Source: Xiphias gladius
Taxonomy: Eukaryota; Chordata; Actinopteri; Istiophoriformes; Xiphiidae
Assembly (NCBI RefSeq): GCF_016859285.1
Contig: NC_053403.1
Span: 470,948-534,947, forward strand
Direction of reading: 5' to 3'
Length of the DNA: 64,000 nucleotides
Shown in pieces: positions 7,131-57,839 of this stretch. The notes beneath the pieces are model-generated. The model saw only the letters and a list, made by a program, of their open reading frames with translations. It was not told where the DNA came from and ran no database searches. The position numbers and the translations under genes were made by a program. Within the stretch, counting starts at the first letter, position 1. The number at the start of each line of letters is the position of its first letter.

Positions 7131-7994
<864 letters not shown>

Positions 7995-30473: not shown

Positions 30474-30477
30474 GGTC

Positions 30478-30650
30478 ATGGAGGTGTCATCCCACAGCCT
30501 CTTCCTGCTGCAGCAGCTCAACGTTCAGAGAGAGTTCGGTTTCCTGTGCGACTGCACCGTCGCCATCGGAAACGTCTACTTCAAAGCTCACCGAGCCGTG
30601 CTGGCCGCCTTCTCCAACTACTTCAAGATGATCTTCATCCACCAGTCCAG
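30478..30650 (+). CDS. zbtb25: zbtb25 coding exon 1
   Basis: Starts at the ATG and ends at CCAG|GTCAGT. 57 codons plus two bases (phase 2). Encodes the first half of the BTB fold. Confidence 0.9.
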
Positions 30651-31982
30651 GTCAGTCCAGGGCTTTTCTAAATGTTAACCTGTAGGTTTAAGGTGACGCC
30701 CTGACTCCTGGAATTCATCAGCTCGAACGCAGAACGCCCTGTCCTCATGTGTCAATCTGTGTCTGTCCCCAGTGAGTGTATAAAGATCCAGCCCACAGAC
30801 ATCCAGCCAGACGTCTTCAGCTACCTGCTGCACATCATGTACACCGGCATGTGTCCCAAACAGCCGGTGGACCAGAGCCGGCTGCAGGACGGCATCAAGT
30901 TTCTTCATGCCCACCAGCTGTGCCGGAAACCGGACGAGGGCGCCGCCGACGCGGCCACCGATGTGGTCCGCATGTCCAACCTGTACGGCATCCAGATCTC
31001 CTCCCAGCTGGCCAACAAGGACGCACCCGGAGTCCCCAAGTCCACCACGGTGTCCTGCGGGGCCCCTGAGGATGGACGCTCCTCTGGCCGCGGAGGACGG
31101 TCCCACTCACAGCTGTCCCTCACTGTCGGTATAGAAGGGGTCCCGTCGGATTGCCAGGCGTCGGCGCTACGCAACGTCTGCTCCGTGGCATCTGGAGATG
31201 ACTCAGACATCTCGACTCGCATCAAGCAGGAGCAGGTGGAGGAGGAGGAGGGGGAGGATGGCGAGGGGGAGGAGGGTCCAGGGGCAGGATCTCCTTCTCC
31301 AGCTCAGGGCAGCAGTCCCAGTCAGAGTCTCCTGTTCAAAGACCGGTCCCTGGTCCTGCTGTGCCCCCGCTGTGGAGAGCGCTGCTCGTCCCCCGAAGGC
31401 TTGCGGGAGCACCTGTTCAGCCATGCCCTCGACCCTGCCCGCCTGATGGAGGGGCTGTCTCACGGCAGAGAGCTGGATACCGGTGTGGAGGAGGGGCCGC
31501 CGGGGGGCCAGGAGCAGCTGGATGCAGGATGTCTGGAGGAGGCCCTAAGGCAGAGCCAGGCGCTGGCCAACCAGCTGGCTGCTGAGCTGAGGAGGAGTCG
31601 GGGTGCAGGAGGGGGAGGAGCGGGGAGCAGCCCCATTCCCGCCGCCCTACACTCCCGTAAACGTAAGATCGCCTGCGCCGTCTGCAGCCTGCGCTTCTCC
31701 CACAAGAGCCAGCTGCAGGAGCACATGTACACCCACACTGGCAAACCGTCCCGCTACCACCGCTACAACCGCCTCTGCAGCCAGCTCTTCCAGGCCTCCA
31801 GCCACTTCTGCGAGGGCGCCGCGGAGCCCGGGGGAGGGGGCGGGGCCGGGGGCGGCGCTTCAGCTGGTGTTGCCACGCTCTCTGAGGAGGCCAACAGGGA
31901 CACTCAGGACAACGGCAGCTCCTGCTACTCCCTGGACTCTGAGATCTCCCAGGAGAGCGTGGACGGCGTGCCCGTGGAATGA
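30478..31982 (+). CDS. zbtb25: ZBTB25, BTB/POZ and C2H2 zinc-finger protein, two coding exons, 460 aa
   Basis: ZBTB25 (KUP) is a nuclear BTB-zinc-finger repressor; in mammals it restrains NFAT-driven transcription in T cells. Coding exon 1 is 30478-30650 and exon 2 is 30773-31982, joined through TCC-AG|T to read [17 protein letters not shown], just as in the human protein; the total is 1,383 nt. The ATG at 30478 lies five bases after an acceptor (ggggtCAG) and gives [15 protein letters not shown], the family start. The BTB domain spans about residues 1-115 ([35 protein letters not shown]). C2H2 fingers lie near 251-275 ([19 protein letters not shown]) and 356-380 ([17 protein letters not shown]). 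Between them are acidic and Gly/Ser-rich linkers and an IKQEQ sumoylation-type site. A glycine run near residue 410 is encoded by very G-rich DNA. It is divergent from zbtb1. Confidence 0.94.
30773..31982 (+). CDS. zbtb25: zbtb25 coding exon 2
   Basis: Acceptor tctgtccccAG| before TGAGTGTATAAAG; runs to TGA at 31980. Encodes the rest of the BTB domain, the linkers and both fingers. Confidence 0.92.
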
Positions 31983-32803
31983 TTCCATCAGGTGATGTCA
32001 TGGAGAGATGTTTCCCCACAAGGTGGCGTGACTGAGCACACAGGTGGTTCTGTTGTCAGGTTGTGAAAAGACGAACCTGGAGGTGTTCTCTCTGAACTCC
32101 GAGGTTTGTGTCGTGGTTCTGTTTCTGTTTCTGCTGCTGTCTGCTGGTTCTCTACCTGTGCAGGTGTGTGTGTGTGTGTGTGTGTAGGTGTGTGAACTTC
32201 TTAAATCAGTCATGTGATCATAGTGTGGTGCTGTGGTCATTAGCTGCAAGAATCAGACTGTTGGTTTTATGATTTTGAGTCACTTTTTAAGAAAAGACAA
32301 AATTCTCTGGCTCCAGCTTCTCCAGTGCGAATGTCCGCTGGTTTCTCTGGTGTCGCAATGACTGAACCTGTCTGGGTTTTTTCATGATTTTCTGACATTT
32401 TGCTGACAAGACGACTAGTTGATTAATCTAGAAAACGCTGAGCAGGGGAATCGATAGTTGAAGCCCTAAACTTGAGGTCACATTAACGTCACATCCTCTT
32501 TTCATTTCATTTAATTTTTGTGAAAATTAACCAGCAGAGATTGTAAACTTGATCTTCCACACTCACCAGCTGACAGTGTCCATCTGAATTATCTGACTCT
32601 CGGTACGACAGAGAAGAAAAGGATGTATTAAAATGTGTGACTGTTCCTTTAATGTAAAGATAACATCAGTGTGACGTAGGCGTCAAACTGTGGTCGAATC
32701 TTTAGACTCTGAGACTCTGTAGAGACTCAGACCTGCTGAAATCAAAGGAAACATGAAGGTTTAGTGTTAAAAGAAGCAGCAGGGCCAGTTTTGATGACTT
32801 TTG
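31983..32803 (+). other. zbtb25 3' flank, probable 3' UTR
   Basis: A GT microsatellite lies at 32164-32185. ATTAAA at 32627-32632, followed by tgtgtgactgttcc, is a possible poly(A) signal. Confidence 0.45.
32627..32632 (+). terminator. Candidate zbtb25 poly(A) signal (ATTAAA)
   Basis: ATTAAA with a GT-rich stretch just downstream. A competing stronger AATAAA lies at 35200-35205, which would put the 1.2-kb minisatellite inside the 3' UTR. Confidence 0.35.
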
Positions 32804-34031
32804 ATGGTTTGATTGTTTGACATTTCGATTGTTTGATGGTTTGACTTTTGATGGTTTGATTGTTTCACGGTTTGACGGTTTGAGCTTTGTGACGTTTTGA
32901 TTGTTTGATGGTTTGAATTTTGAGGGTTTGAGGGTTTGATGGTTTGATGGTTTGATAGTTTGACGGTTTGACGGTTTGACGGTTTGAGGGTTTGAGGGGT
33001 GGATGGTTTGATGGTTTGACAGTTTGATGATTTGACGGTTTCAGGGGTGGACGGTTTGATAGTTTGATGGTTTGATGGTTTGACGGTTTGAAGGGTGGAT
33101 GGTTTGATGGTTTGACAGTTTGATGGTTTCACGGTTTGATGGTTTGACAGTTTGATGGTTTGATGGTTTGACGTTTTGAGGGTTTAGCGGTTTCACAGTT
33201 TGACTTTTGACGGTTTGACCTTTCTGACGTTTGGATTGTTTAACGGTTTGACTCTTTATGGTTTGATTGTTTCACAGTTTGACGGTTTAACCCTTGTGAG
33301 GTTTTGATAGTTTGATGGTTTGACTTTTGAGGTTTTGATGGTTTGATTGTTTGACAGTTTGACGGTTTGCCTGTTGGACAGTTTGAGGGGTTGACGGTTT
33401 GACGGTTTGATGGTTTGACGGTTTGATGGTTTGATGGTTTGACGGTTTGAGGGGTGGACGGTTTGACGGTTTGACAGTTTGATGGTTTGAGGGGTGGACA
33501 GTTTGATGGTTTGACAGTTTGATGGTTTGACGGTTTGAGGGGTGGACGGTTTGACGGTTTGATGGTTTGACAGTTTGATGGTTTGACAGTTTGATGGTTT
33601 GATGGTTTGAGGGGTGGACAGTTTGATGGTTTGACGGTTTGATGGTTTGACAGTTTGATGGTTGGATGTTTTGATGGTTTGACGGTTTGAGGGGTGGACG
33701 GTTTGACGGTTTGATGGTTTGACAGTTTGATGGTTTGACGGTTTGAGGGGTGGATGGTTTGATTGTTTGACAGTTTGATGGTTGGATGTTTTGATGGTTT
33801 GACGGTTTGATGGTTTGACAGTTTGATGGTTGGATGTTTTGATGGTTTGACGGTTTGAGGGGTGGTTGACAGTTTGATGGTTTGACGGTTTGAGGGGTGG
33901 ATGGTTTGACAGTTTGATGGTTTGACGGTTTTATAGTTTGACTTTTGATGGTTTGACGGTTTCATGGTTTGACGGTTTTATAGTTCGACTTTTGATGGTT
34001 TGACGGTTTGATGGTTTGACAGTTTGATAGG
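32804..34031. repeat. 1.2-kb minisatellite of 8-bp units (GGTTTGAY)n
   Basis: Units gatggttt, gacggttt and gacagttt alternate for about 1,230 bases, with a recurrent variant gaggggtgga that gives a higher-order pattern. Because 8 bp repeats in 24 bp, the minus strand stays open for up to 241 codons of a meaningless KPSNHQTV-type repeat. Confidence 0.97.
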
Positions 34032-37960: not shown

Positions 37961-39090
37961 GTGTAGTGATAAAGGTCTGAACCAAGAGAGGGAAGGTGAG
38001 ATTAAAGGAGAAATATTCACCTCTGGGCTGAACCGTGCGACGTGTTTAGACGCTCAACCCACAGAGCAAACTGCTGTGGACGACGTGGAGAGACAATGGA
38101 GATGTTCACATGTCCGACTGTGATGAACTCTGATCAGCTGATGTGATTATTCTCTGTGTGAGAGCTGCTGTAGCTCAGAGAGTCCTGATATCTCAGCAGC
38201 TTAACAAGCATCTTTGGAAAGACGGAGGTTGTGGGATCAAAACTTCTCTCGATCCGTCAGTGTAAAAATAAATGTATGACACAGGAAACATGAGGATGAT
38301 CACGTTGTTCACGTCTCCACAAGCAACGAGTGGGACTGAAAAGACGTGCTCTCTGATCCTGCCAGTAACAATCATGTGTGATCTTTCTGCTGATTTGAGC
38401 CAGATTTCGCCAGTCCCCCATACCGGGCTGTGATAAAGTGGCACCAGGAGAAAGACGACCAGGCTGAAGGAGGAAGATTCACCGTCACCAACCTGCAGAG
38501 AAAAGCCCGAAGAGAAATTCTGACCGTTTGAACTTTGAAACACGTTCGAACCGACAAGATAAAGTCGTTTCATTGAGATGAGCTGCTTAATGCACAGGTT
38601 TTATGACACAGAGATCTCAGCACCGTTTGTGTTCATGTGTTTCCCGTCTCCAGGGGAAACAGTTTCAACCTCCAGGATTCACTACATTTCCCAGAATGCC
38701 TTTCCACAACTGTCAGAGAACTGCAAAGAAAGTCAAATTGTACGAGAAAACATAAATTAAGTTCTGCTGACAGTTGGGATGTTGCTCGGCAGCCCTCACC
38801 TGTCGGAGGACGTGATTGGTGGATCTGCTGTTGCTTAGGGACAGATCAATGTATTTTTATCCTCCATCGCTATAGAAACAAAAGCTGCTGAGGATCTTTC
38901 TCACACCTTTAAAAATAGACGACGACATGTGATGACATCAGAGAGCACAGAGTCTGCTGCAGGAGCTCAATAACTGATCAACATGTCAGAGACAGTTACC
39001 TGTGGAGAGGTAGTTCCCTCAGTTGTTCTCCAGTCCATCAGTGTGTTTAAATATGAAAGGAACAAACCCACAAAAATTTTAAAAGATTCT
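37961..39090. other. Intergenic DNA upstream of akap5
   Basis: No gene or clear element recognised; a 126-codon minus-strand frame at 38193-38573 has no domain. Confidence 0.45.
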
Positions 39091-39460
39091 TTGTAGTCAT
39101 GTTTGTCTCTTTGTGACCGTGTTGTGTCTCTCTATGGTCATGTTGTGTCTCTTTGTGGTCGTTTTCTGTCTCTTTGTGGTCATGTTTGTCTCTTTGTGAC
39201 CGTGTTGTGTCTCTCTATGGTCATGTTGTGTCTCTTTGTGGTCGTTTTCTGTCTCTCTATGGTCATGTTGTGTCTCTTTGTGGTCGTTTTCTGTCTCTTT
39301 GTGGTCATGTTTTGTCTCTTTGTGGTCATGTTTTGTCTCTTTGTGGTCGTTTTCTGTCTCTTTGTGGTCATGTTTTGTCTCTTTGTGGTCGTTTTCTGTC
39401 TCTTTGTGGTCATGTTTTGTCTCTTTGTGGTTGTTTTGTTTTCTGTCTCTTTGTGGCCGT
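39091..39460. repeat. Minisatellite of about 21-bp units, open on both strands
   Basis: Units of the form tctctttgtggtcatgttttg (21 bp, with 20- to 24-bp variants) recur about 17 times. The period of seven codons keeps frames open on both strands (CLFVVMF forward, TKRQNMT reverse). These are not proteins. Confidence 0.95.
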
Positions 39461-39923: not shown

Positions 39924-41492
39924 GTGAGGTTTGATTTTTTGTTCAGCTCTGAACGAACCGCTGCTTGTGCTGCGTGTTTGGGAAGGAGTTAGTGGCTGTT
40001 TGACTGAAGGAAGCTGGATCACTTCACTGTTGCAGATCACATTCTCATTGTTTTTATAAAAACAATGAAGGGAAGAGTTATTATTTTTGATTGTTATTGA
40101 ATTCCTACTGTAGTATCAACTTTATTTCTTCCCCATAAGCTGAGTGGGCCGCGGCAGCCATGTCCAGGACCGGTGTCTCCTCGCCGAGTGACCGAACTCT
40201 GATCAGGTTTGTTAAACGAGCTGTGACCTGATGACGATCTCCCTACAGCAGCACAGAGATCTCGGTCTACAGATCAGCCGATGTCTTCCTCTGATGAAGA
40301 TAATAATATACAAAATGATACTTTATCAATCTGGCCGATGAAGAAAATTCCTCTTAAAATACTTTTTATTTCAAAGTCTGGGTAAAACCTGAAGGTTTAC
40401 ACAGGGATCGTGATAGAAAACGCAGTCGCTGTGTTTTTTCTTTCATGTTGAAAGAAATAAGAGCGATGACTGTTTATCGGGTGCAGCCAGTAAATGGCGG
40501 TGGAGGTGTGGATCACTGTGGATCTCCAGACCCGATGCAGAGTGCGTCCAGGCCTCAATGAAGATCAAATGAACTTTTTCATTTGCGTCAACAACCATGT
40601 TTACCGTTGCATCGGATCTTTTTTTCCGGGTTTTTTTTTTGTGCTCAGTGTTCAGGTTTTTTGGTGACGGGAAGTCATCTCTGAACATTGTCCTGATCAG
40701 TAAGTCGGGACTCAGCCCCGACTTAACGTAGAAAAGCGTCAGACGTTTGAATATCATTGCTGACGTTTCTTCATCAGCCAGTCACTGACATCGTAGTGAC
40801 TTAAAATACATTTTTAGAGTTTTTTGATTGCTGCAGAACACGGTTCATTTTACTACCGGACTCTTTTCTCTTTTCTCTTGTTTTTGCTTTTATGTTTGTG
40901 TGAATACATCTATTAACCCTTTTTTTTGACCACGCCTGAAATGCTGTAATTTTACTTCCCTTCTACTCTTTTAGTATCCTGTGTCTTCTTATTGAGGTTT
41001 TTACAACCTGTCGCTTTGTGTTACTGCAACATTTTGGTGGAAATACCCTCTTGTAAAATGCAGTTTTTGTGTTTATGTATTTTTAGGGTCCAGTTAATGG
41101 TCACAGATGGTAAAATAACTTTCTTTGTACACATTTCAACTAATATTGACATTAATAAATGAGACTTTAAGTAATTTTTTAACAAATGTGTTTAGAAATG
41201 ATCAAATATTGTCATCCGACTGGTTGGTCGTGTTTTAAAACCTAAAAAGCTGTTTTTAAAATTAAAAAATCAGAACAAACAAAATGATTATTATTAACAG
41301 GATGTCGTACCCACATATTTCAGCCTCACTTTGGACTCAGAGAGCAGAAAATGTTTCAGTCCTGATCAGAAACATCAGATGTTCATATTTCAGACTCGTG
41401 CATCAGCAGTTTAATATCTGCTGCTGAGGTTTACTGCTCCGTCTGTCATAAATCAACAGTGTCTAAACTGCTGCGTGGTTTCTGGTCTGCAG
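39924..41492 (+). other. akap5 5' UTR intron (inferred)
   Basis: GT at 39924, CAG acceptor (tggtctgCAG) at 41490-41492. No coding signal inside. Confidence 0.5.
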
Positions 41493-41609
41493 GTTCCCAG
41501 CCGTTTAATCTCAGCAGCAGATGGTTCAGCAGCGCCTGATTGTGGACAGAAGAGCTTAAACGCCATCGGGAAGTATAAAAACCATTTAGCCTCACCGTGG
41601 AGACAGACC

Positions 41610-42923
41610 ATGGCGACAGCGGACGGAGAGGACATCAAGCGAGGAGAGAAAGTCGGTTTGAAGAGAAAACTGACCGGTCCTCCGAGGCTGCTGTTGGGAA
41701 AAACCAGGACCAGGAGCATTGGGGAGGACAGAGCTGAGGCTTGGACTAAAAGAGACAGAGACAAAACCTCCCAGAAAAACTCAGCTGCTGCTGCAGAGAA
41801 TGAAACGGCCGAGCTGACTGAAAGTCCCAACATGGAGGAGGAAGTTTTATCTGACGTAAACGTAGAGGGCTGCAGGGGGCGCTGTGAGGACACAGGTGAG
41901 GACGACGACATCAGAAACAGGAAGGTAAGCAGACGCAGGTGGTGGAGGAGGTTCTCCTCAGCGCCCCTTTGTATCAGGAGGCAAAACAGCAACGTGGAAG
42001 AAAGTTCAGAGAAGCAGCCACATCATCAGGAGGCAGACGCTGGAGAAGAAAACAGCAAGAGTGTCTCTAAAGCGAGGAAGAGGTTTAACCTGAGGTTCAG
42101 GACTTCCTCCAATGTCCACACTCACGAGCAGAGGAAAGACGCAGACGAACCTTCACTGACCTTCCAGAAAAAACTGAGAAAATTCTTCACCAAAGGAGGG
42201 AGGAGCAGATCATCAGGTCTGGCTGCGGAAAACATGGAGGACATGATGAGGATCGAGGAGGCCACCCGGTTGCCTGACGAACTCATGAGCGATGGCACCG
42301 ATCGGAGTCCGGAGGCTGTGACGGTCACGGCTGAGATGGACGTCGAGCTGACTGAAGATCGAGTCACGGCAGAGAGTCCAGAAGAATCACCAGTGGAAGT
42401 CACCAAGAAGGATCTGACTGCAGACGGATCGGAGACGATCCAAATAGACAGCGAGGTTGTTCAAGTCGCCGAAGACACAGATGAGGTTCCTGTTGAAGAT
42501 TTGATCGAGATCGAGTCTCCAGAGAGAGACGAGGTTTTCTCCCCCGAAGTGCTCCTGGACCTCGATGATCATCTTTCAGTCTGGACCGTTTCATCTGAGG
42601 AGAAGATGGATCAAACCACCTCCCAGTCTCTTCATCCAACAACTAACGGACCCTCTATCCGGATCGAGCTGGTTCCTCCAGATGACGTCACTCTGGAGGA
42701 TGCAGAGGAGGAGGAGTGCTGGGTGGGTAGCTCCTCCTCAGAGAACCAGAGCCACCTCCTCCTCCTTCTCGGCTGCGACCACGGCGAGCGGCAGCTGCTT
42801 CAGACAGCTCGCTCTCTGGTCCGAGCCGCCATGAACGCTGCCGTGGATCAGCTGACCAGAGAACAGCAGAGCGGATCAGACTGTGTTCACAGAGAACCGC
42901 AGGGCTGCAGAGATCACGCCTGA
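41610..42923 (+). CDS. akap5: AKAP5 (AKAP79/150), A-kinase anchoring protein, single coding exon, 437 aa
   Basis: AKAP5 tethers PKA, calcineurin and PKC at the plasma membrane and postsynapse. The start is the ATG at 41610 in a strong context (agaccATGG); the longer frame upstream, reaching 41475, crosses the splice acceptor at 41492. Three polybasic segments fit the A/B/C membrane-targeting regions: residues 10-36 (KRGEKVGLKRKL), 104-124 (SRRRWWRRF, with Cys121 as a possible palmitoylation site) and 154-200 (KARKRFNLRFR, KKLRKFFTKGG). A long acidic middle follows. PSIRIEL at 348-354 sits where mammals have the calcineurin PxIxIT motif but lacks its final Thr. Residues 394-419 (RQLLQTARSLVRAAMNAAVD) form the amphipathic RII-binding helix and match the mammalian C-terminus in pattern. 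Overall divergence is high, as usual for this gene. Its position beside zbtb25 and an MTHFD1-type gene agrees with human 14q23. Confidence 0.88.
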   Translation: MATADGEDIKRGEKVGLKRKLTGPPRLLLGKTRTRSIGEDRAEAWTKRDRDKTSQKNSAAAAENETAELTESPNMEEEVLSDVNVEGCRGRCEDTGEDDDIRNRKVSRRRWWRRFSSAPLCIRRQNSNVEESSEKQPHHQEADAGEENSKSVSKARKRFNLRFRTSSNVHTHEQRKDADEPSLTFQKKLRKFFTKGGRSRSSGLAAENMEDMMRIEEATRLPDELMSDGTDRSPEAVTVTAEMDVELTEDRVTAESPEESPVEVTKKDLTADGSETIQIDSEVVQVAEDTDEVPVEDLIEIESPERDEVFSPEVLLDLDDHLSVWTVSSEEKMDQTTSQSLHPTTNGPSIRIELVPPDDVTLEDAEEEECWVGSSSSENQSHLLLLLGCDHGERQLLQTARSLVRAAMNAAVDQLTREQQSGSDCVHREPQGCRDHA

Positions 42924-43730: not shown

Positions 43731-46432
43731 TGCAGGTTTAACGTTTACTATATTCATTCTAAAAGGGAAGTCTGCCTGACAGTCACAGCTCAGGGCAAAA
43801 TGTCTCATGAAAAACAGTGAAATTTCCCTAACTCATTTTATCTGATCGCGATTTGACCTTTGGAGAATGTTTCAGTATAAACTGCAGCGACGTGTTTTCA
43901 AATAAAAATGACGTGTTCCTCATCTGTAACTCAACATTGGTTTAAGCTGAGCAGGTTTCTGTCATCACCTCTACTTTTCATTAACTCCTCAAACTCAAAT
44001 CAAGTCAGTTTTTGAGTGTTGAATTGACTGAATGTTTGGTCACTACTGTTTTTCTTCTTCACGAAGACAAACGTGCCAAAGAAACAGGAGGGAATAAATA
44101 TTTTAATGCGGGTGTTGAAAGGTGAATCTGCCAACGTCCACCGTCTTCAGGAACATCCAGTAAAAAGAAGAGGAAGATTTTCGTCCCAGAGCATCAAAAG
44201 AAGAAACTCAAACATGTCACTGACAGACAAAACTGTAATGTTATTCATTTTCTCATAAACATCTGAGTGAACACTAAAGAAATGAAATCAATAAATTCAA
44301 TCAGAACATTCAGACTCCTCAGGCTGCATCTCTGTGTGAAGTTATTTCAGGAATCAATCGAAGTGATTGTCACACCGACTCACGAATTCACCTAATTAAT
44401 GACTGAGGGGCTCTGATTACATCACACAGCTGTCAATCACTGGATGACTGACAGCTGGACATCATCTGTGTTTGATTATCATCAGAGCAGAAGACAAATT
44501 GAAGACAAATCAGATCGACAGAAGTCTTCGAAGTTAAACTGAGATAAAAACGATCATCATTTATAGCAAATCAGGAACATTGTGGATCATCAGCGCTGTC
44601 TCTGGCAGAGACAGAAAGTTTAGGATTTACTGATTTTTCTAAATACAACAGTGACCTGTGTGTTTTTGGGATTTTACGTGAATAATTGTCTCTGTGCCGG
44701 TGAAATATTACGGTTACATTATTTTTATATATAAAAATAATATTGAGCATAAAAATAAACAGTCTGTTCCGTTATTTATCAAGTTCAGTTCAGATTCCCA
44801 CCGGAAACTTAGGAAAAAGTTCAGCTGCGGAGTAAAGTTACAGACATTTGAACTCATCGGAGGCCGTTTACCACTTGATTTTATTTACTTTTATAATTAA
44901 ATGAGTTGATGAATTTTTATATTTAAGTTACCGTGTGACTTGTCGGTCATGAGCTGTCACGTTCTTCAGAAACTAAATACGCTCAGTTTGAATCATTAAA
45001 TGTTCAATCAGCCTCCTCAGCTGCTCGGTCGCGTGTGTCTGTAAAAAACAGTAAGGAGCCCTTTAGTAAATCCTCATACAGACGTACTTTTGTGCGGAAC
45101 TCTGATCACTCTGAACTTGTTTTGAAAAAGGAATCGGCCATGAAGGAGTTTCATGCCCGTTCTGTGTATTTTAAAGCTCCATCAGATGTCGCAGACTCAG
45201 GCGACTCTGAAGACAGATTCATCTGATGCATATTTGTAGTTTTAAATCACTTTAGATCCGAATTCAGACAAAATGAGGAGACAAATGAAAAATAAATAAA
45301 ACCTAAATGTTTAAACATTGTAGATGAGATCAAGCTTCATTTAATTGGCGTTACAGCAGCACAGAGACAAGGCGAGGAAGCCGGAAACAGATACACAGCG
45401 ATTTAAAAGAGGTGAAATACAATCAGACGTGAAAGAAACTCGAGGATCGTTCACATCATCAAACTTGACACCATTCACATGATTTGTACAGGATTCAATT
45501 CATTTTCTATCAATAATCAATTCACTGATCAGATATTTGATCCCTTCACGTCGACATCAGTCCTCAGCAGGAAACAGCTGGTAGGTCTCCATGACGACGA
45601 CCCCTGACCCCTCAGCAAACAGAGCTGCTGTGGAGGTTAAAGGTCGAGGGCGGAACAGAATTACACTGTAAAAGTGGTCAGAGTGAAAACGAACGTTAAA
45701 ACAGAATCTCTGAAAACCAGGCTCTGCACCGACGGGCTGAATGAAACCTGCTGTTTATCTTTGTCCACGGTAAAGATGTCGGGTGTGAACGTCCACTTGA
45801 CTTTCATGACTTACACAACTGATTCAATGAAGGAACATAAGAGGGTAGAAATATCAAATGACCCCGGTGAACGTAAGAGACAGAGAACATTGATTTAAGA
45901 ACTGAATTATTCAAAAGACAGAAGAGGACACAAATAAAAACAGAGGGAGAGTCACACCTGTTCGCACTCGTTCACACCTGTTCGCACCTGTCTGCCTGCG
46001 GGTAGACAAACAAACACACCGTGAGAGTTCAGCAGCAGGGGGCGACACTGTGCCGCATTAACTCATCGTCACGCACAGAGAGAACGAGCTGAGCCCTTAT
46101 TAACTGATGTACAGATTTAAAACAGTGGCGCTGTGAACATCAGATTGAAACCAGCCACTGTGAGGAAAAACAAAACATCTGCAGTTTGGCGTCGTAGGTT
46201 TAAAGGAAAAAGCTCGAGATGTTATGAGGATTCAGTTCTAATTTTACACGTACAAATGTGTCGCATGTGGAGAATGAAGTTGCAGGATTGTGAGAAAAAC
46301 AGCAGCTCACGTGTTACAGTGAAGGATGTGGAGGATCTGAAGTTACCGGTTTCAGCAATAAGCATCTTATTATCATCAGGTTTCTATCTTCTTGTTTTAC
46401 CTGTAGCGTCGGTTCAGTTCAGCTGAAGTGTT
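43731..46432. other. Interval between akap5 and the MTHFD1-type gene
   Basis: I looked here for the exons of a formyl-THF synthetase domain, which would follow on the minus strand, and saw none of its glycine-rich or GEGKST-type signatures. It presumably contains the 3' UTR of the minus-strand gene. TTTAAT at 45340-45345 (ATTAAA on the minus strand) is a possible poly(A) signal. Confidence 0.5.
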
Positions 46433-46486
46433 TCACCACCTGGACTGATTCTTCAGGAGGAAACGCTGAGCGCTCTGCACCGTGTT
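46433..46486 (-). CDS. MTHFD1-type gene, terminal exon 10
   Basis: Acceptor gttttcCAG; encodes [17 protein letters not shown] then TGA. In full-length MTHFD1 this helix (STVESAKRF-like) leads to the linker and synthetase domain; here it terminates. Confidence 0.85.
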   Translation of the reverse strand, partial: NTVQSAQRFLLKNQSRW

Positions 46487-49400
46487 CTGGAAAACACGCA
46501 ACCATGAAAAAGAGCGGGGACACAAGCTCCCCGTGTCCCCCGTCCCTCAGGGTTATTAACCTGCAGCAGAACACAGTTCTGCACAGAAGCGGGTTCGGCT
46601 TCCTGAGGCCCGCACAGAAACCACAACAATAAAACGGATTTGGAATCAAATAAGATCAGTAAAACAAGAAAAGGCCACACAATCCAAATAAAAGATTAGA
46701 AAATAAGTAACGAAAGAAAACAACAGAAACTTACAATTAAAAAACAAAAATTTCCTCGTCTAAACAAATAAAATAAATTGTCTGTTTGGGAACAGAATTT
46801 CTGCCATCGACTGATTGAACTGACCTTCGAGGGAACAGAGACCAGGTAAGTCCAGCGGGGTCCAGCTAGCTGGCTTGGAAAAAGCCAGCTAGCGAGACAA
46901 GACTTTGGTGTCTGAGGTCATTATCTAATCTATTTTAGTTTTTTTATTTGATTGTCCTGAAGGGACAAATTAGTGTCAGTGATTAACTGTGAAAGCTGTG
47001 ATGTTGGAAGGAAGGAAGACCAGTGTCTGAAACTTCTCCCTGATTCACTCATTCACCGTCTCCACCGAATCAACGACAGTGAGCGGAAAGACGAGGTTTC
47101 AGACTCTTATAAATGATCAAACACCAAATGAGACACACAAGAGATTAGCTTGTTAGCAAAGGGACAAAAGTAAAATCCATAACTGTTCTCAGGAGACGAT
47201 GTCGTCCCTGATTAAAACTTAATGAGTCTCAGCTTTAATTAAAGCCCGAAGACACAGAACACAGAGGCTGAACTGAGGAAACACTGAATGTTCCTTTCCA
47301 GCATTAACATACTGACACAGCCAATTAAGGACTTTACACATTGTGAATAATGCAGCACAGTTAATAATCTATCTCACATTTAAAGATTTGATTTGTACTA
47401 GTGAGGATTTTGTGTTTCTTTTGAATTTCTTCTCTTAAATACTTTAAACTTTAAAAAGTTCATCTAAATAAAATAAGATAAATTACCTCCATGAGCATGG
47501 CCACCGTCATTGGCCCCACCCCCCCTGGAACAGGTGTGATGAATCCCGCTCTCTGTTTGGCTGAGGCGTAGTGAACGTCTCCGACCACCCGTTTACCGCT
47601 GGCCTTCGTCTCATCTGTCAGAGGGGTCAAAGGTCACACACGGGTGTAGAAACGTAAACGCTCTGGTGGTCAGCCTTCAGATCCGGCACTGGATATTCCC
47701 GCACACACACTCAGATGTTAACGTTTTAAAACTACTGCTCAGTTCACGACAAAGAGCGTCCACAGTTTGCAGGGACCTCAGTGGGTCCGGGGGGTCAGGT
47801 CTTTATTGTCCTCGGTAGTTTCCCTTTTTAAAACCGGGTTATGGTTTAATGGTCACGATGCTCAGCGCTAACGGCTCCTGAGGCGACAGGAGAGTCTGTT
47901 GACGTTTTCCGACGTGAGCAGTTCTGCTCGGGTTCAGTATCATCAGCCGCAGGAAGTGGTTTCCTGATCCGCGAAGACGAACGTCTGTTTCGGGATTTAG
48001 CCGAGACTGAAGCTGACGTCCAGTTTCACGTTTTATTGTTGTTATCTGACCATCTGAGCTTTAGCGTTTTGACTGAAATGTTCATTTCTGATGAACTTTT
48101 CACTCTTCCGTTGATTAAAAGAACAACTTGAGTCGTGCTTTAAATATCTACCAACGAAAACAAAAATATTCATCGTATCATGTCGGAAAGAGAAAGGTTT
48201 CAATGAGATGAGCTGATCTCGCGATACAGCGACATAAAGACACGTGTTGTGATCATGAGAAACGTTTCTGGTGAAAACGGAATAATTTGGTATCTCGTGA
48301 AAACACGACACGATAACGTCTCGTTATAATGTGAAGAGGAGCTCGTTCATTGTCTCGCTGAAGAAAAGCTCTTTATCTAAAACCGGATGTTTTCTACAGG
48401 AAGTTCTGTTCACGTCTGACTGATGTTTCATCACTTTACCCGTAATAACACAATAAATAACCCAAATAATGAACTGTTCTGCCCAAATGTTATAATAACA
48501 TCGCTGTTACTTCTACTGTGACGAGTCCTGATGAAAACGAGCATAAAAAAGGGTTTAATGTGGAAAATGTCTCATTAAAATCAGACTCCATCCATTTGTT
48601 CATTAACTGATGTAAAGACGGTGGCATCACTGCACTATGATGTAGCACCAGTGTATTATTCAGTGTGTATTATTCAGTGTGTACCAGTGTGTATCAGTGT
48701 GTATTATTCAGTGTGTATTATTCAGTGTGTATCAGTGTGTATCAGTGTGTATTATTCAGTGTGTATCAGTGTGTATCAGTGTGTATTATTCAGTGTGTAT
48801 TATTCAGTGTGTATAAGTGTGTATCATTGTGTATTATTCAGTGTGTATTATTCAGTGTGTATTATTCAGTGTGTACCTGGTACGTGGTTGATTCCACAGT
48901 CGATGACCACAGCTCCGTCCTTCACCCACTGTCCACTCACCATCTCTGCTCGACCTGCCCCCACCACCAGGATGTCAGCCCTGCTCACCTGTAGACACAC
49001 AGGAAACGCATCATCACACAGGAAACGCATCATCACAAACAGGAGACACATCATCATCACACAGGAAACGCATCACGCATCATCACACAGGAAACGCATC
49101 ATCACAAACAGGAGACACATCATCATCACACAGGAAACGCATCATCATCACACAGGAGACGCATCATCACACAGTTTTCTGTCTTCAGGTGTCTTCAAGT
49201 CCCATCAGTAGTTTTTATTGTCTCCGATGATCCAAAACACTCGGACCAGACGAGGAGAACAACGTCGAGGTCTGGGGTTTATCAGATGCTGAGGGCGCGG
49301 TTGGTTCTCGTGGTCTACGTGCTGGATGTGGGAGAAATGAGCAGGCGTAAAGACCTGAACCACTTTGAGAAGGACCAGAATGTTATGTTCAGAGGACCAG

Positions 49401-52400
49401 GTTGGAGCATCTCTGAAACAACAAGGCTGGTGGGGGGCTGCTGGTCAGAGGTGGTGAGTCTGAGGAGGGACAGACCGTGAACCGGAGACAGGGTGATGGG
49501 TGAGATGGGCCGGGACAAAAGTCTGGTCCACATCGGCTTCATTTCGAAACATCTGGGACTCAAGGATCTGCTGCTGACGTCCTGGTGCCAGATACCACAG
49601 GGACCATCAGAGGTCCGGTAGAGTCCATGTCTGGACCAGCGGTGTGTTAGACAGGTTCAGTGTGTTTTCACTTCTACGTTTTTAACTCTGTGGGTTTTTG
49701 TTGTCCCTTCAGGTCCGGCTTTTTTTGACTCTGTGTTCCCTCCGTGGTTTTCTCTTACCAGAGACAAAGACCAGATAATGTTGAGTCAGTCCTGTCTCTG
49801 CTCCGCTTCCACTGGAACCTGACCTGACCCAGTCGGCTCCGGAGAACTCGGGGTCCCTCTTTGTTCCACTTTGATTCCTGGACTCCAGAGAACGCAAAGG
49901 CCCGATGGGCAGTTTGGAATCTGCTTTGCTTCCTCACAGGCAGCTGCTGCTTTCACTTCATCTCTATGAAACTGTGTGAAAACGCTCTGATAACTGAAGC
50001 TCCGACATCTCAGGCTTTAAAAGCTCTCGAGGTAAAGCATGATAAAAATCATCGTCACCATCATCATCATCAGTACCCAGGTGGGTGTGGTCACCTGTTC
50101 AGGTAGGTCCGGGGTCTTTGAGTGGCAGGTGGTCACAGTAGCGTGGTTCCACAGCAGCAGGTCGTGCATCGGAGCTCCGACGATTTTACTGCGACCGATC
50201 ACGACCGCGTGTTTTCCCGCCACAGACACACCTGCACAGGTACAGGGAGGTTGGTATCTCTCAGCGCCACCGTACATGTTCTAGCTCACTTATTATGAAA
50301 ACAGGTGTTTGACTATTTTGTGTGTATGTCCATTGGTTTTTTGACACACATTATAATACACTGATAGTGCAACGTGAAGGGATTCTGTCAGTCCTGTTAT
50401 TAATCTTATTTTTCTATTTGTCAGGGGCCGACCGTGTTTTTGTTTTTTGGTCTCATCTATTCAAACCGCCCCATTAAAAGCCGCTGAATAAGCTGTGATC
50501 AGCTAATTATTAACTATAATTTGATTATCACAAGCAACTCTGTCAGGTCCTCCATCCTCCATCTTGGAGCCTGGTCTCACAGAGGGACTCTGTGTCAGAA
50601 TCTGGTTTTAAGACCTGAATTATAAGTAAAAGTAAGGTCGCGTTATTCCATCACAGGAGAACTAAGGATGCCACCAACTATTATTTTCATGATGAATAAA
50701 TCAGACAGTTATTTCCTTCCTGCTATATGAATAAAACTGAATTGAACTGAATTGAATGAATAAGTGACTGATGTCGAGTGAATAAAAAGTCAGAAAATAG
50801 TGAAAACGGTCCAGCGTTGTTCCCTGAAGGCCAGGTTCACACTGTGGTCAATTTGTTTTGTCTGACCAACAGTCAAAAACACAAAGACGTTGAGATTATG
50901 TCAGAGAAAACTGGGAAAAAACAAATATTCTCATTTCAGAGGCTGGAACCAGAGAATTTTTGGTATTTTGCTTAAAAAAATGACTTAAACGATTAATCTG
51001 TTGTTGCTGCTAATTAATTATCTGTCACTGACTGATTGATTGATCAGCTTATCATTTCAGCTCTCGAGCACCGGTTGGTTTCTGGGTGTCAGGTCGAAGT
51101 AAAACGCTGACATGTACAGTGGGGGTCATTTCTGGCCCCGGGGCCCCTCGAACGGGGAATCCCACCCTGGATTTGTGGACATTTACCAAACAATACGTGT
51201 ACGAAGTTTGTGTGTGAAGAAAGGTTTCTTTGTGTCAGTCATGATGAAAGGGTTAAATGACCTGAGAGTGTGTTATTTTTTACAGTGTGTGACCTGTCTG
51301 TCTGATGAGCTCCATGCAGCCGTTGGGGGTGCAGGGGATGAAACAGTCGCCCAGGTCACCTCGAGACAGCTTCCCTGCATTAATACAGCTCAGACTGCAC
51401 ACACACACACACACACACAGTAAATATGTGGCATGTATGAAGAAGTACTGGGGTGAACAGGACAAATTTCAAACAGCTGTGTGATGTATATCAGTATGTA
51501 AAAGCACATTGTGATTACATTGAGATTATTCAGTGTCTCACAGTCAAATCTTATCGGGAAACAAGTTCGTAGATCTGTTTAAATTCAGTTTAATCACAGA
51601 CACGAGACCTCAGGACAAAAAAATCTGTAAGAAGACAAAGAGAAAGAAATAAAAGTGTAGAGTTCCTGTTCCTGACTCACCCATCCACATCCTTGTCTGG
51701 GGACACGGCGTTGGTGATGAGTTCAGTGTTGATGGGATTAACAGAGTCCAGAGGGAGCTGGACGATCAGACCGTGGACAGACAGGTTCTCGTTGACAGAC
51801 ATGATGCTATGCAGGACCTGGAGGACGACAGGAAACAGGAGACAGTCAGCGCTGGACCTTTCGTCCGCTGCAGGTTGGCTAGAGATCAAACTGAGCTCGT
51901 CACCGACCTCCTCCTGCGTCGCCGTGTTCGGCAGCTTCACGTGTTTGGCATCGATTCCAATCTGCAGACGAGAAACTGAAAATGTTATTAAAGCTGCACT
52001 AGTCAGTGTTTTTATATTCACACCAGCCCCTTTTCCCCTCATGGCTCATGTCCTGTTGAAAGGGCGGGGGTGAGGGTGAGGGCGGGGGCGGGGGCGGGGG
52101 TGGGGGCGGGGGAGGCTAACCTGAGGAATGTTTGCCAAACCAACCATGAGGTCGTCGTCTGAAGACGTTTCTCTTTTAAACCAAAACACTTTCTGACAAC
52201 TCTGACATCTTTGTATGTAAATGTGGACTGGGCTCAAATCCGTCCAGTGCTTGATGAGATATTTCGGTCTGGACTGGACTGACGGATACTGGTCCACTCA
52301 GAGACCACATATTTCAAGGATCAGTCTGGTCTTTCTACATTTTTCTTACTGTGAACAAATCTTCTGTTCAGACTCGAACCAGCGGTCCGTCTCTCAACAC

Positions 52401-55400
52401 TTTCTGACTTATGGGCGCTAGCGCGGGTCGTCCGCCGGCTTCTGGGTCGGCGGTTCGACGCCGGCTCCTCCTGTCCACATGTTGAAGTGTCCTCGCTCCA
52501 GATGTGCAGGCCAGCGCCTTGCACGGCAGGTCCATCGCCACTGGTGTGCGAGTGTGTGTGTGAATGGGCGCTTTGTAAACTGCTAAGGTAAAAAGGCGTC
52601 TATGGGAGTGCAGTCCGTTTACCATTCCCTCCTCCGTCTGTGGCTCTCAGCTCCGAGCCCATTGGTTCCTACTGTAGACGTGAGTCCTTAAAAAGACCTC
52701 ACAAATATACCGATTCATTTAAAAATAAAAAAGACTCAGTCATTTTCCTAAAGCAGCTGCTCACTGTAGTTTTAATCAAACAAACAGGAGGGAACAGGGA
52801 CTTTGTTGGGGACTATTTTCAGCGGCGGATTAATCCACGTTTGGTGCTGTAGCGAGTGTTTGTGGCAGCAGGACGGTGTGTGTGTGTGTGTTGATGTTGA
52901 TGGAGGAACGTGTGTGTTTGGTTCTTGAAACAGTGGAGCTCTGAGGCTCAGAGGAACCAGATACGTCAGAGACGTCAGTGTTGGTTTGAGAAAACATCGG
53001 TTTTCTTAAACCTGATCAAATGTATGAAATGTCGTTTTTGTCACCTCAGCTGCAGCCTTCAGTTTGGTGCTGATGTACAGGTTGGAGTCGTCTCTGTCTC
53101 CCACCTGAAACACAGTTGAAAACCTTTATTTCATCGGGAGATTGAACACACTTCAGTCCTGCGACAGTCGACCGTTACTGCTCAATCATCTGCTTTGTCT
53201 CTCAGCGGCGACTCCAAACGGCCACTGAGGCTGCTTCCCTGTGACATCGTCCGTAAAAACGGGAACAACAATCGTAGAGTTTACGAAAAGCACGGACGTA
53301 CGATGGATCCCGCTCTAACGAGGCAGCTCGTTAAGGCTCCCGAGTGTGGGCGGAGTCTCCTTAAGCCTGCAGACCTCAGTGAGCGTTGTCAGATGAGAGT
53401 CAGTTCACCGGTGACTGAACCCATAACGGTAACACACCACACCAGTTCTCCAGAAGCTACCTTGACTTCTGTCTTTGTTTTCTCCTCTGATTGATTTTGG
53501 TGAACCTAAAAGTTGTATCGTGACCGGTAACCTCAGGAATGATGTTAATGAATAAAACGGCGTAACTCACAACTGATAGGAACAATTAAAATCTGTAAAT
53601 GAAAATGAAAAAACAATTAAAACGATAAAAGAAACAGTTTTATGATTCAGTACGGAGACGTGTCATGGACCTGACAAAGGTCCATGACAGGAGGGAATCC
53701 GCCTTTTCTTGACATTATTAACATTTCATATCATATATTAACATTATTTCCACCAGGTGAGTTTTACATATCAACAAGTTAAAAGCTTCCCAGTTCACCC
53801 GGAGGAAGTTTTTATATAATTAAATCCCAGTGTTGAACTGGGACCAGGTCTATGATGCCCCAGTTTCTGGGTCACGACCTTTAACTCTTCAACGTTTTTG
53901 CTTTTGCAAACATTCGGGTTGTTTGCGACTCTAAACAGCTTTCAGAGAAAATTTGAGAAAAACAAACTTTTATCACATTTGACATTTTGACGCCAGGACA
54001 CTGTTGAAGACAAACAGTTTGAGGACCAGCAGGACACATTTAAGAGTAACACATGTTGGACAGTTGTCAAGATAAACGTGCTCAACTAACTTCATTCATG
54101 CGTCCTTACGTGCGTGAATGAGCGTAACAGCTAAACTTGATTGAACCCGTGACTCTTCGGGTTCAGGTCTGACTGGTTCAGGTTTTGGTTTGGAGGGTTG
54201 AAGGTTTGTTATCAAGGTTCATTAGAAGAGCAGCAGCTGGAGTAAACACAGCAGGTTCAGACTGGTTTAGATATGCAGAACACGCTGCATGGTTTTAACT
54301 GAGCTGTTCTGGTCCTCTGATCAGGCCTCATTACGACCAGGTCCCAGACGGTCCTAAAACCTCGGACCGGTGAGCTGAGAGGAGATTTAGTCTCAGTTTG
54401 TGTCTCTCGTGTTTCATCCTTCCATTCAGCTCACAGAGCAAAGTCCCACCCGCAGAACGGACTGAAGTCTTTTCATGGAGCAGTGAATCACTGTGATACG
54501 ACCAGCAGGTGTCGCCAGAGTCACAAATGTCCCCGCTCCGCACACAGTGGCTCCGAGTCTGGACGGTCTGGGACGTTTGTCCCATTCAAATTAGAAACAA
54601 AAAACGATCGATTTTTTTGGATGCATGATACTCGGAGTTAAGAAGAAGTCCAGGTTTTGTGACAGAAATGTCAAGTCAAGGTTTTGTGTTCACCAAGTGT
54701 TCGTTAATGAGCTTGTAAGACCACAGGACTCACCTGTAAGATCACTGGACTCACCTGTAAGACCACAGGACTCACCTGTAAGATCACTGGACTCACCTGT
54801 AAGACCACAGGACTCACCTGTAAGACCACAGGACTGACCTGTAAGACTCCAGACTCACCTGTAAGACTCCAGGACTCACCTGTAAGACCACAGGACTCAC
54901 CTGTAAGACTCCAGACTCACCTGTAAGACCACAGGACTCACCTGTAAGACCACAGGACTCACCTGTAAGACCACAGGACTCACCTGTAAGACCACAGGAC
55001 TCACCTGTAAGACCACAGGACTCACCTGTAAGACCACAGGACTCACCTGTAAGACTCCAGACTCACCTGTAAGACCACAGGACTCACCTGTAAGACCACA
55101 GGACTCACCTGTAAGACCACAGGACTGACCTGTAAGACTCCAGACTCACCTGTAAGACCACAGGACTCACTTGTAAGACCACAGGACTCACCTGTAAGAC
55201 TCCAGACTCACCTGTAAGATCACTGGACTCACCTGTAAAACCACCAGACTGGGTCTGAACCCCGAGAACTGACTCCTCATCTTCTCCACCTCATTCTTCA
55301 GCCTCTCCCTCACTAACCTGCACACACACAGACCTAGGATCAGTCTTCGAAGGTCAAAGGTCAAAAATTCAAAAGGTGTCATAATGTTTGGGCTGACTGG

Positions 55401-55572
55401 AGAAACTGGGAGAAACTTGACAGGAGTGGGAAAAGTAAGAAATGCTGGGTGATACTGGGATGTTGACTCACTTGGAAGTCTTGTTGCCGGAGATGACGGT
55501 TGCCATGGAGCGCATGCTTCCTTGGCAACCAGAGGCCCCGAGACGGAGCGAGTGGGTGACCGAGGATAACAT
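46433..55572 (-). CDS. MTHFD1-type methylenetetrahydrofolate dehydrogenase/cyclohydrolase lacking the synthetase domain, ten coding exons, 322 aa
   Basis: The product should interconvert methylene-, methenyl- and 10-formyl-THF in one-carbon metabolism. Ten exons (55472-55572, 55233-55317, 53045-53104, 51908-51961, 51681-51817, 51294-51394, 50095-50231, 48877-48988, 47487-47614, 46433-46486) join with matching phases into 969 nt. Catalytic residues are kept: YISTK (Lys76), VQLPLD (Gln120), DVDG (Asp145), PCTP (166-169), GRSKIVGAP (192-200) and PGGVGPMT (292-299). Sequence is MTHFD1-like rather than MTHFD2-like, for example HVKLPNTAT and [13 protein letters not shown]. The MTHFD2 insertion is absent, suggesting NADP use. 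Unlike MTHFD1 (about 935 aa), the frame ends at TGA 46433 shortly after the domain; no synthetase exons follow. The first 22 residues, before the Met that aligns with human Met1, contain Arg and no acidic residue and may be a mitochondrial presequence. It may be the fish mthfd1a locus or an mthfd2-like paralogue; I leave the symbol blank. Confidence 0.9.
47487..47614 (-). CDS. MTHFD1-type gene, coding exon 9
   Basis: Encodes [20 protein letters not shown] and then [20 protein letters not shown]: the invariant C-terminal signature of the dehydrogenase domain. Donor GAG|GTAATT. Confidence 0.95.
47624..47636 (+). promoter_or_regulatory. DR1 nuclear-receptor-type element in intron 8
   Basis: GGGTCAAAGGTCA, a direct repeat spaced by one base, ten bases from exon 9. 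On the transcribed strand it also serves as the pyrimidine tract of the acceptor, so the match may be coincidental. Confidence 0.35.
48649..48876. repeat. Tandem array cagtgtgtat/tattattcagtgtg starting at the exon 8 donor
   Basis: Ten-base (cagtgtgtat) and fifteen-base (cagtgtgtattatt) units alternate for about 225 bases and run right up to the 5' splice site at 48876. Confidence 0.95.
48877..48988 (-). CDS. MTHFD1-type gene, coding exon 8
   Basis: Encodes [19 protein letters not shown] and [18 protein letters not shown]. Donor CCAG|GTACAC opens directly into one tandem array, and the acceptor side is flanked within about ten bases by another. Confidence 0.94.
48995..49174. repeat. Tandem array of 18-24-bp units (acacaggaaacgcatcatc) beside the exon 8 acceptor
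   Basis: Seven to eight imperfect units, beginning a few bases from the 3' splice site of exon 8. Confidence 0.93.
50095..50231 (-). CDS. MTHFD1-type gene, coding exon 7
   Basis: Encodes [20 protein letters not shown] and [19 protein letters not shown]: the NADP-binding Rossmann loop. Donor CAG|GTGACC. Confidence 0.95.
51294..51394 (-). CDS. MTHFD1-type gene, coding exon 6
   Basis: Encodes [20 protein letters not shown] and [13 protein letters not shown]. The acceptor lies just inside a GT/AC microsatellite (51397-51419), which supplies the pyrimidine-purine tract; donor ACAG|GTCACA. Confidence 0.92.
51681..51817 (-). CDS. MTHFD1-type gene, coding exon 5
   Basis: Starts [16 protein letters not shown] and includes IVQLPLD and PDKDVDG. 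Acceptor ctcCAG, donor TGG|GTGAGT, phase 2. The preceding intron is only 90 bp. Confidence 0.92.
51908..51961 (-). CDS. MTHFD1-type gene, coding exon 4
   Basis: 18 codons, [18 protein letters not shown]. Acceptor ctgCAG; the donor GAG|GTCGGT is weak beyond GT but is the only one that keeps the homologous frame. Confidence 0.82.
52062..52115. repeat. G-rich tract, potential G-quadruplex
   Basis: Eight or more runs of three to five G separated by single bases on the + strand, in the intron between exons 3 and 4. The + strand is the template for the minus-strand gene. Confidence 0.85.
52410..52629 (+). mobile_element. tRNA-derived SINE, near full length
   Basis: A tRNA-like head (gctagcgcgggtcg, then box-B-like ggttcgacg at 52452-52460) is followed by a conserved body (cctcctgtccacatgttgaa, gtgtgaatgggcgctttg) and a tail gcagtccgtttaccatt. 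I recognise this as a SINE widespread in teleosts. It sits in the intron between exons 3 and 4 of the MTHFD1-type gene, antisense to it. Confidence 0.72.
53045..53104 (-). CDS. MTHFD1-type gene, coding exon 3
   Basis: 20 codons, [20 protein letters not shown], containing the catalytic Tyr-x-x-x-Lys (Lys76). Acceptor tttCAG, donor GAG|GTGACA. Confidence 0.92.
54714..55247. repeat. 20/21-bp minisatellite built from the exon 2 splice-donor junction
   Basis: About 25 units of ctcacctgtaagaccacagga type (21 bp; a 20-bp variant has gactcc). Read on the gene's strand, each unit contains TCTTACAG|GTGAGT, a near-perfect donor preceded by an acceptor-like TTACAG. The exon 2 donor at 55227-55233 is the first unit. 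Twenty-one bases equal seven codons (VSPVVLQ), so most units preserve the exon 2 frame. Confidence 0.96.
55233..55317 (-). CDS. MTHFD1-type gene, coding exon 2
   Basis: Acceptor gtgtgCAG|GTTAGT, donor TTACAG|GTGAGT. Encodes [13 protein letters not shown]...LVVLQ, matching the N-terminal helix of the folate domain. Its donor is the first member of the tandem array 54714-55247. Confidence 0.88.
55351..55363 (+). promoter_or_regulatory. Perfect DR1 element in intron 1
   Basis: AGGTCAAAGGTCA: two AGGTCA half-sites spaced by one base, the RXR-heterodimer/HNF4/PPAR-type element, in the 154-bp intron between coding exons 1 and 2. Confidence 0.4.
55472..55572 (-). CDS. MTHFD1-type gene, coding exon 1
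   Basis: ATG at 55572; 33 codons plus 2 bases, donor CCAA|GTGAGT. Residues 1-22 are the putative targeting extension; Met23 (MATVISG) aligns with the usual cytosolic start. A CT-tract plus CAG ends two bases before the ATG, so a 5' UTR intron is likely. Confidence 0.8.
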
Positions 55573-55575
55573 GAC

Positions 55576-55603
55576 TGAGAGAGAGAGAGAGAGAGAGAGA
55601 GAG
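55576..55603. repeat. (GA)n repeat forming a pyrimidine tract
   Basis: A gagaga run; on the minus strand it is a CT tract ending CAG just before the initiation codon, probably the 3' splice site of a 5' UTR intron. Confidence 0.8.
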
Positions 55604-56719
55604 CATCAGTTAACAGCAGGGCTGAACTGGTTTGTATTATATTTGAATTATCTCCTAATTAACCAACTGACAGACGTGTGGTTTTGAACACATGGTGACA
55701 GCGGGATCAGTCTGACGCTGAGCTGGTCACCTGAATGCACCCGATGCACAAACAGGGAGAGGAAAACCATACTGTGTTCAGCGATCGATCGATGGATTCA
55801 TTGATCAAATACGACTCTGAAGCCGACGCTTCATGTATTTAACTAATCCGTTCGTTATCTGTCCATTGCTCGGCTCCGCTTCTGTTGTTAGCGATTGACA
55901 CGAGAGAGAACGGCGAAACACGCTGGACATCCCCTGCATAATCAACCCGTCTCCTAGAATTTACAGTTACTGTGAATACAACTAAACTGCAACAGCAAAT
56001 ATGTTTTCAAGGAACATAATCCAGACCGGATCATGTTTCCCGTTGACATGATGAGGAAATGTTGGGGATTTACGTATCTGACAAGACGCAAAATGTTAAT
56101 ACTGAACTCTTCAGTAAAGTGTTAAGTGGCAGGCGGTGAGTCCAGCATCATGAGGCTGGTTAGTGGTTCTGTTTAGACTCTCACAGCTCCTGGGGCAGGT
56201 CCAGGAAAGATCCTGGACATTTTTTTCCTGCCTAAACCCCCGACAGGATTCAGGGTGTGAACCTGCTCTTTGCTGTCAAAGTCTGAAAAACCTCCACCCA
56301 GACCTCTGACCTACAGAACCCAGGCAGAGAGGACGTCACCGCGACACAATTTGTAAAACACAGAGACCGATTTTCTAGGGGACAAGGCCTCAGACGACAG
56401 ACTGCGACACCATGATCCCCGATGCGCTGCTCTTACGGCCTCCACTCCACCAGATGTTGAACCCGCTGCGGGGATCTGATCCCGCTCAGGCTCCGGAGCA
56501 TCAGTGAGATCCAGCCCTGATGTTGGCTCACAGTCGGCGCTGGATGGGGCAGAGGTCAAATGCTTCCAGACCAAACTAGGAAAAGCATTTCTTTCAAGGA
56601 TTTTTTTAAGTGTGTGCATCTTAACCTGTGAGGTAACCGGTAACTCCAGCTGTTCAATAAATGTACTAGTGTACTTTCCTATAAAGTACAATATCTCCTT
56701 CTGAAATGTAGTGAGGTAT

Positions 56720-57682: not shown

Positions 57683-57730
57683 CTGAGAGATGGACAGAAA
57701 ACTTCTGACACTCAGCTGCTCCAGTGTGTC
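57683..57730 (-). promoter_or_regulatory. Candidate noncoding first exon of the MTHFD1-type gene
   Basis: On the minus strand a strong donor CTCAG|GTAAGG (exon end 57683) could splice to the CT-tract/CAG acceptor at 55575-55577. Upstream lie GT microsatellites, a DR1 site and a CCAAT box. The exon's 5' end is not determined. Confidence 0.4.
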
Positions 57731-57734
57731 TGTA

Positions 57735-57770
<36 letters not shown>

Positions 57771-57839
57771 ACCTTATCTGTGCCTGTGTGTGTGTGTGTG
57801 TGTGTGGGTGTGTGTGTGTGTGTGTGTTCGTGTGTGTGT
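57735..57839. repeat. (GT)n microsatellites
   Basis: Two long gtgt blocks (about 57735-57769 and 57785-57839). Confidence 0.97.

Follow-up and report, generated by a model that had tools for sequence, protein, structure and literature searches.

A tandem array of 25 splice-donor sequences at the exon 2 junction of an MTHFD1-type gene in swordfish

We analysed 64,000 nucleotides of DNA from the swordfish, Xiphias gladius (assembly GCF_016859285.1, contig NC_053403.1, positions 470,948 to 534,947; hereafter the window). This DNA contains a gene of the MTHFD1 type in which the 5' splice site of exon 2 is the first of a tandem array of donor sequences. We located the exons for the dehydrogenase/cyclohydrolase (DC) domain by tblastn with an approximate human MTHFD1 probe. 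Nine coding exons and a tenth, joined at the first donor of the array (donor 1), give an open reading frame (ORF) of 322 aa. The following features, in window coordinates, are needed for what follows. Slashes mark splice junctions, and TRF is Tandem Repeats Finder.

55472..55572, minus strand: coding exon 1, from the ATG; leader-like N-terminus by composition alone.
55233..55317, minus strand: coding exon 2, 85 nt; ends PSLVVLQ/ with donor 1, CAG/GTGAGT; ungapped MTHFD1 DC match across the junction.
54714..55250, minus strand: splice-donor minisatellite; an exonic copy (copy 0) and 25 further units of 20 or 21 bp, with 25 GT donors (TRF, unit and donor tables).
55212..55232, minus strand: unit 1, with donor 2 at its end (isoform table).
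55192..55211, minus strand: first 20-bp unit; shifts the frame, and a TGA (codon 77) follows.
53045..53104, minus strand: coding exon 3.
48996..49174, minus strand: third minisatellite; ends 7 nt upstream of exon 8; pyrimidine tract of TTTCCTGTGTG type, no CAG (TRF).
48877..48988, minus strand: coding exon 8, with minisatellites on both flanks.
48651..48875, minus strand: second minisatellite, from the second base of intron 8; GTACACACTGAATA, then units of ATACACACTGAATA type (TRF).
46433..46486, minus strand: last coding exon as modelled (exon 10); the protein ends after the DC domain.

By its predicted protein, the host is an MTHFD1-type gene for the DC domain, mthfd1a-like. A stretch of 271 aa from exon 2 to exon 9 aligned without gaps over 270 aa to residues 16-285 of PDB entries 6ecq/1a4i (E 2.6e-128), which we take to be human MTHFD1. 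The spliced protein also matched PF00763 (106 bits) and PF02882 (210.9 bits). The N-terminus of the modelled protein resembles a mitochondrial leader, by composition alone. The C-terminal synthetase domain that marks a trifunctional MTHFD1 was not found within the window, and the model has a stop in exon 10. That is, tblastn at E values up to 10 gave no credible exon in the window for the synthetase part of a trifunctional C1-THF synthase. The sole match to the synthetase half of the probe, 18 aa long and at chance level (E 9.7), falls within a zinc-finger ORF at 19759-19812, on the other strand from the gene. Exon 10 ends in CAG/GTGGTG, which could be taken for a donor; we preferred the stop because no credible synthetase exon was found downstream in the window. 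As modelled, the gene (46433-55572) codes for the DC domain alone behind the leader-like N-terminus. It also has a (GT)n microsatellite at 51398-51419 (gene's strand), in the pyrimidine tract ahead of exon 6, and a (CT)n microsatellite at 55577-55603 (gene's strand), immediately ahead of the ATG.

We found that the exon 2 junction is repeated many times in tandem. A sequence-only reading of this DNA had described about 25 donor-like sites there, the authentic donor being unit one, and both points were confirmed. TRF detected a minus-strand repeat at 54714-55244 with a period of 21, 25.5 copies and a score of 873. In the AGTC register, copy 0 is exonic (55230-55250) and the last further unit ends at 54713/54714. 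There are 25 GT donors in splice register, and a 26th copy at 54713 is degenerate (CAA/GC). The donor word is CAGGTGAGT in 22 of the 25, CAAGTGAGT in one (donor 4) and CAGGTCAGT in two (donors 6 and 20), so that 22 of 25 have the full consensus CAG/GTGAGT. Successive units are 21 bp apart in 20 of 25 steps and 20 bp apart in the other 5. The 22 occurrences of CAGGTGAGT in the 560-bp array segment compare with a mean of 0.068 and a maximum of 2 in 1000 shuffles; the rest of the window has three copies of the word per strand. The units are of six types, in the order CBDABEAABAAAAAABAFBEACACD. No structured RNA was found within 46400-56400 (zero Rfam matches at gathering score). An exact 33-mer search of viral and prokaryote contig sets gave 0 matches, a miss that is little informative with such sets.

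The alignment to the solved protein identifies donor 1, whose last exonic base is 55233, as the authentic exon 2 donor, since the protein spliced at donor 1 matches the MTHFD1 DC domain without gaps. At the junction with exon 3 the solved protein reads PRLAILQ/VG and the window PSLVVLQ/VG. Because the solved protein has PRLAILQ/V at the same place, the exon sequence is older than the array. We also scored every unit as a splice site, a check that had been proposed with the earlier description, by predicted pairing with U1 (pseudouridines outside the model). Donor 1 paired at -11.7 kcal/mol, more strongly than the eight other authentic donors examined in the gene (-5.2 to -9.9), and 21 of the 24 extra donors equalled it. 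A decoy field for U1 snRNP, a possibility raised in the sequence-only reading, was neither borne out nor contradicted by this analysis.

The extra donors would seldom yield an intact protein. Although the sequence-only reading had called them mostly in frame, only 8 of 24 (donor 2 and donors 10-16) share the frame of donor 1, with five 20-bp steps among the 25. It was right that 20-bp units break the frame. The first of these, between donors 2 and 3, moves the frame onto a TGA. Donors from number 4 on, among them seven of the eight in-frame donors, all come after this in-frame stop in the extended exon. Later donors had been expected to add multiples of VSPVVLQ; in this allele donor 2 is the only extra donor that gives a longer intact protein (+VSPVILQ). 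Use of donor 3 would shift the frame and end translation within exon 3, with 683 nt between the stop and the last junction. With donors 4-25 translation would end at codon 77 in the extended exon, and the last junction would lie 746-1183 nt downstream of that stop. By the usual rule for nonsense-mediated decay (NMD), a stop 50-55 nt upstream of a junction, the products of donors 3-25 would be NMD targets, since their stops lie at least 683 nt upstream. The +7-aa form from donor 2 scored 95.4 bits with PF00763, versus 106, and its insert falls in a block common to the solved enzyme.

It is likely that the array is a mirage-type minisatellite, nearly neutral for the protein, with donor 1 dominant. 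The repeat spans an exon-intron boundary and its units carry splice signals. The likely history begins with a 21-bp stretch at the junction that closes coding exon 2, made up of the final 18 bases of the exon and the 3 intronic bases after them. Replication slippage probably duplicated this stretch, which then grew into 25 further units. Donor 1 would define the 85-nt exon 2, and the remainder of the array would be removed with intron 2 (2128 nt). Donor 2 may yield a minor +7-aa isoform that is tolerated or slightly harmful, and donors 3-25 would be used rarely, their products being destroyed by NMD. Since such an array would be nearly neutral for the protein, its length should differ among individuals.

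The likeness between exon end and units is supportive of this origin but not decisive. In register, the exon-end 21-mer agreed with each of the six unit types at 13-16 of 21 positions; every unit type, made of exonic plus intronic bases, holds GTGAGT or GTCAGT. Against the rest of intron 2 the 21-mer matched at a mean of 5.2 positions and a maximum of 14 of 21. Because this maximum overlaps the 13-16 range, the register, the position and the shared TTACAG/GT count as much as the score. We considered that selection keeps the donors and rejected this: conservation is no higher in the donor columns (2 of 9 variable) than in the rest (5 of 12 variable; Fisher P 0.64), as under drift. Nothing in the columns suggests selection on the array.

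Several observations weigh against a mirage-type origin with donor 1 dominant. Two copies of AGTC, 21 bp from each other, lie on either side of the donor, as would suit slippage, but we do not take this microhomology to prove how the array began: a 4-nt match is present at 49.9% of 5000 random points. Adjacent identical units numbered 6 versus a shuffle mean of 6.5 and so gave no sign of recent homogenisation. Unit types were interspersed, and their clustering was not significant (at most 6 main-type units in a row, P 0.07). That most transcripts use donor 1 is inferred from the predicted protein. Among competing donors of equal strength, the site nearer the acceptor can win in test systems, which would disfavour donor 1. 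Human IFI6 does use two of its downstream repeat units as donors, according to the available text of PMC4526556.

We weighed several other explanations against a nearly neutral mirage. One is that the array acts as a rheostat of donor choice: some transcripts slip to donors 3-25, stop early and are degraded by NMD, so that array length tunes expression of the enzyme. The extra donors that equal donor 1, itself the gene's best, and the stops of donors 3-25, all at least 683 nt upstream of the last junction, favour this, yet the donor columns lack any sign of constraint, and we regard it as decidedly unlikely. It is also possible, though very unlikely, that splicing is recursive and silent, with introns of several units cut within the array, CAG/GTGAGT regenerated and the mRNA unchanged. 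Each unit can be read as a donor, a branch-point-like CTTAC (25 in the array) and a CAG acceptor with the next donor directly behind it. The units close with CAG (or CAA) ahead of GT, so that joining one unit to another would recreate an identical donor. The pyrimidine fraction before the unit CAG (0.47-0.60) is within that of the nine authentic acceptors (0.47-0.87), but at its weak end, and such splicing would leave no mark in the final mRNA. The proposal of the sequence-only reading, a protein of variable length made by in-frame use of many donors, appears extremely unlikely. Donor 2 does add VSPVILQ in frame, and if all units of an allele were 21 bp long, that frame would remain open. However, donors 3-25 give premature stops in this allele, which excludes a ladder of in-frame isoforms here, and even the first insert falls within a block that the solved enzyme also has, at a cost in domain score.

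Two readings concern the DNA rather than the transcript. CAGGTG is an E-box, a motif of ZEB/Snail-type or bHLH factors, and the array holds 22 of them at steps of 20-21 bp or twice that, a homotypic run at about two helical turns that could bind such factors. CAGGTG is part of the donor sequence, however, so the run is a by-product of the array's origin; the whole window, array included, has 114 CAGGTG or CACCTG words. We think a function of this kind highly improbable. An assembly error in the number or order of units is quite improbable. The amphioxus BflGb6 mirage seemed misassembled in a draft genome, as the available text of PMC3087553 has it, but here six interspersed unit types lie between unique flanks, and an error would alter the number of units and not the existence of the array. 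We also considered the array as a U1 shield against premature polyadenylation and rejected it: intron 2 has just one AATAAA or ATTAAA, at offset 2102 of 2128, so there would be little to protect against inside the intron.

Two unrelated minisatellites lie next to exon 8 of this gene, within 1 nt of it on the donor side and 7 nt on the pyrimidine-tract side. All three of the gene's arrays longer than 100 bp thus abut splice junctions. With random placement in the nine introns, the probability that both small arrays lie within 7 nt of an exon is about 3e-4, and that all three lie at junctions about 6e-6 (simulation and formula agree). The test was post hoc and covered the three in-gene arrays longer than 100 bp. 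It left out shorter repeats, such as 52062-52112 (intron 3, ~100 nt from exon 4) and several microsatellites. Arrays at 32800-34028 and 39088-39456 and a GT run at 57724-57839 are outside the gene, where no splice sites are known, and beyond the test. The exon 8 arrays do not copy splice dinucleotides, except for one further GTACACAC in the donor-side array, so that, strictly speaking, the term mirage fits the exon 2 array alone.

Other features of the window lie outside the gene. The array at 32800-34028 consists of ~154 octamers of TTTGATGG type over 1.2 kb. An uninterrupted 730-aa ORF at 18643-20835 (minus strand) codes for a BTB domain and C2H2 zinc fingers and is presumably ZBTB1-like, going by gene order alone. 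ORFs at 30343-31982 (plus strand) code for C2H2 fingers and the first part of a BTB domain and are probably a second ZBTB gene. The 502-aa ORF at 41415-42923 (plus strand) had no Pfam or NCBIfam match; again from gene order alone, it may be AKAP5-like. The neighbouring BTB zinc-finger ORFs recall what we take to be the human order MTHFD1-AKAP5-ZBTB25-ZBTB1. An ORF at 7131-7994 (plus strand) has an InaF motif (PF15018, 56.9 bits). NCBIfam gave zero matches among the 5 window ORFs searched.

With 25 near-identical donors at one exon, the locus is a natural experiment on 5' splice site choice among equals. The premature stops would make slips between donors visible as NMD targets, and, should individuals prove to differ in copy number, the comparison would show whether mis-splicing rises with the number of donors. 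A bolder view, which we consider unlikely, is that the array is a working rheostat in which changes in copy number alter the share of transcripts whose exon 2 extends into a premature stop or is recursively and silently re-spliced. If so, a minisatellite would set the output of a folate enzyme, and the exon 8 arrays would be signs that splice junctions throughout this lineage tend to seed minisatellites.

The sequence-only reading had held that few loci show a minisatellite of splice sites. That may be fair as to rarity, but the kind is known from amphioxus and from human IFI6. IFI6 (6-16/G1P3) reportedly has a splice-donor minisatellite, described by Turri et al. in 1995, with a repeat unit of 12 bp. 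As at IFI6, many consensus donors lie at the authentic donor. The swordfish array differs in its 21-bp unit, in its unrelated gene and in that the third donor onward leads to premature stops. In the available text on IFI6 (PMC4526556), as here, a minisatellite supplies multiple donors for joining exon 2 to exon 3. Human paralogs have internal tandem repeats at exon-intron boundaries and transcript-supported novel introns, as described in the accessible part of PMC2812944. In both cases expansion of a boundary repeat alters potential splice sites in a duplicated gene; the swordfish array, unlike those repeats, is known from genomic sequence alone. Earthworm metallothionein has minisatellites in introns, with no copied splice junction mentioned in the excerpt of PMC12783039. 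Among the literature matches listed, in the parts available, there was no fish case of a splice-junction minisatellite, which is not proof of absence.

The closest resemblance is to the amphioxus mirages, tandem repeats spanning exon-intron boundaries in Adh3 and the globins BflGb6 and BflGb9 (PMC3087553), with troponin C and PGBD5 as further cases (PMC3902484). As far as the available portions of these reports go, the arrays leave regular splicing undisturbed (PMC3087553, PMC3902484), and they were proposed as a route to new introns (PMC3087553). Many, although not all, of their units carry AG/GT signals, and the authentic junction stands beside cryptic copies, as in swordfish. By the same accounts, the swordfish array differs in its lineage and in having 25 units of 20-21 bp, compared to 150-160 bp in the globins and 10-72 bp in Adh3, and, unlike the amphioxus mirages, it has kept the full consensus in 22 of 25 donors. 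The exon 2 array looks like a fresh example of a kind already described, and it extends an amphioxus-type phenomenon (PMC3087553) to what looks like a teleost gene.
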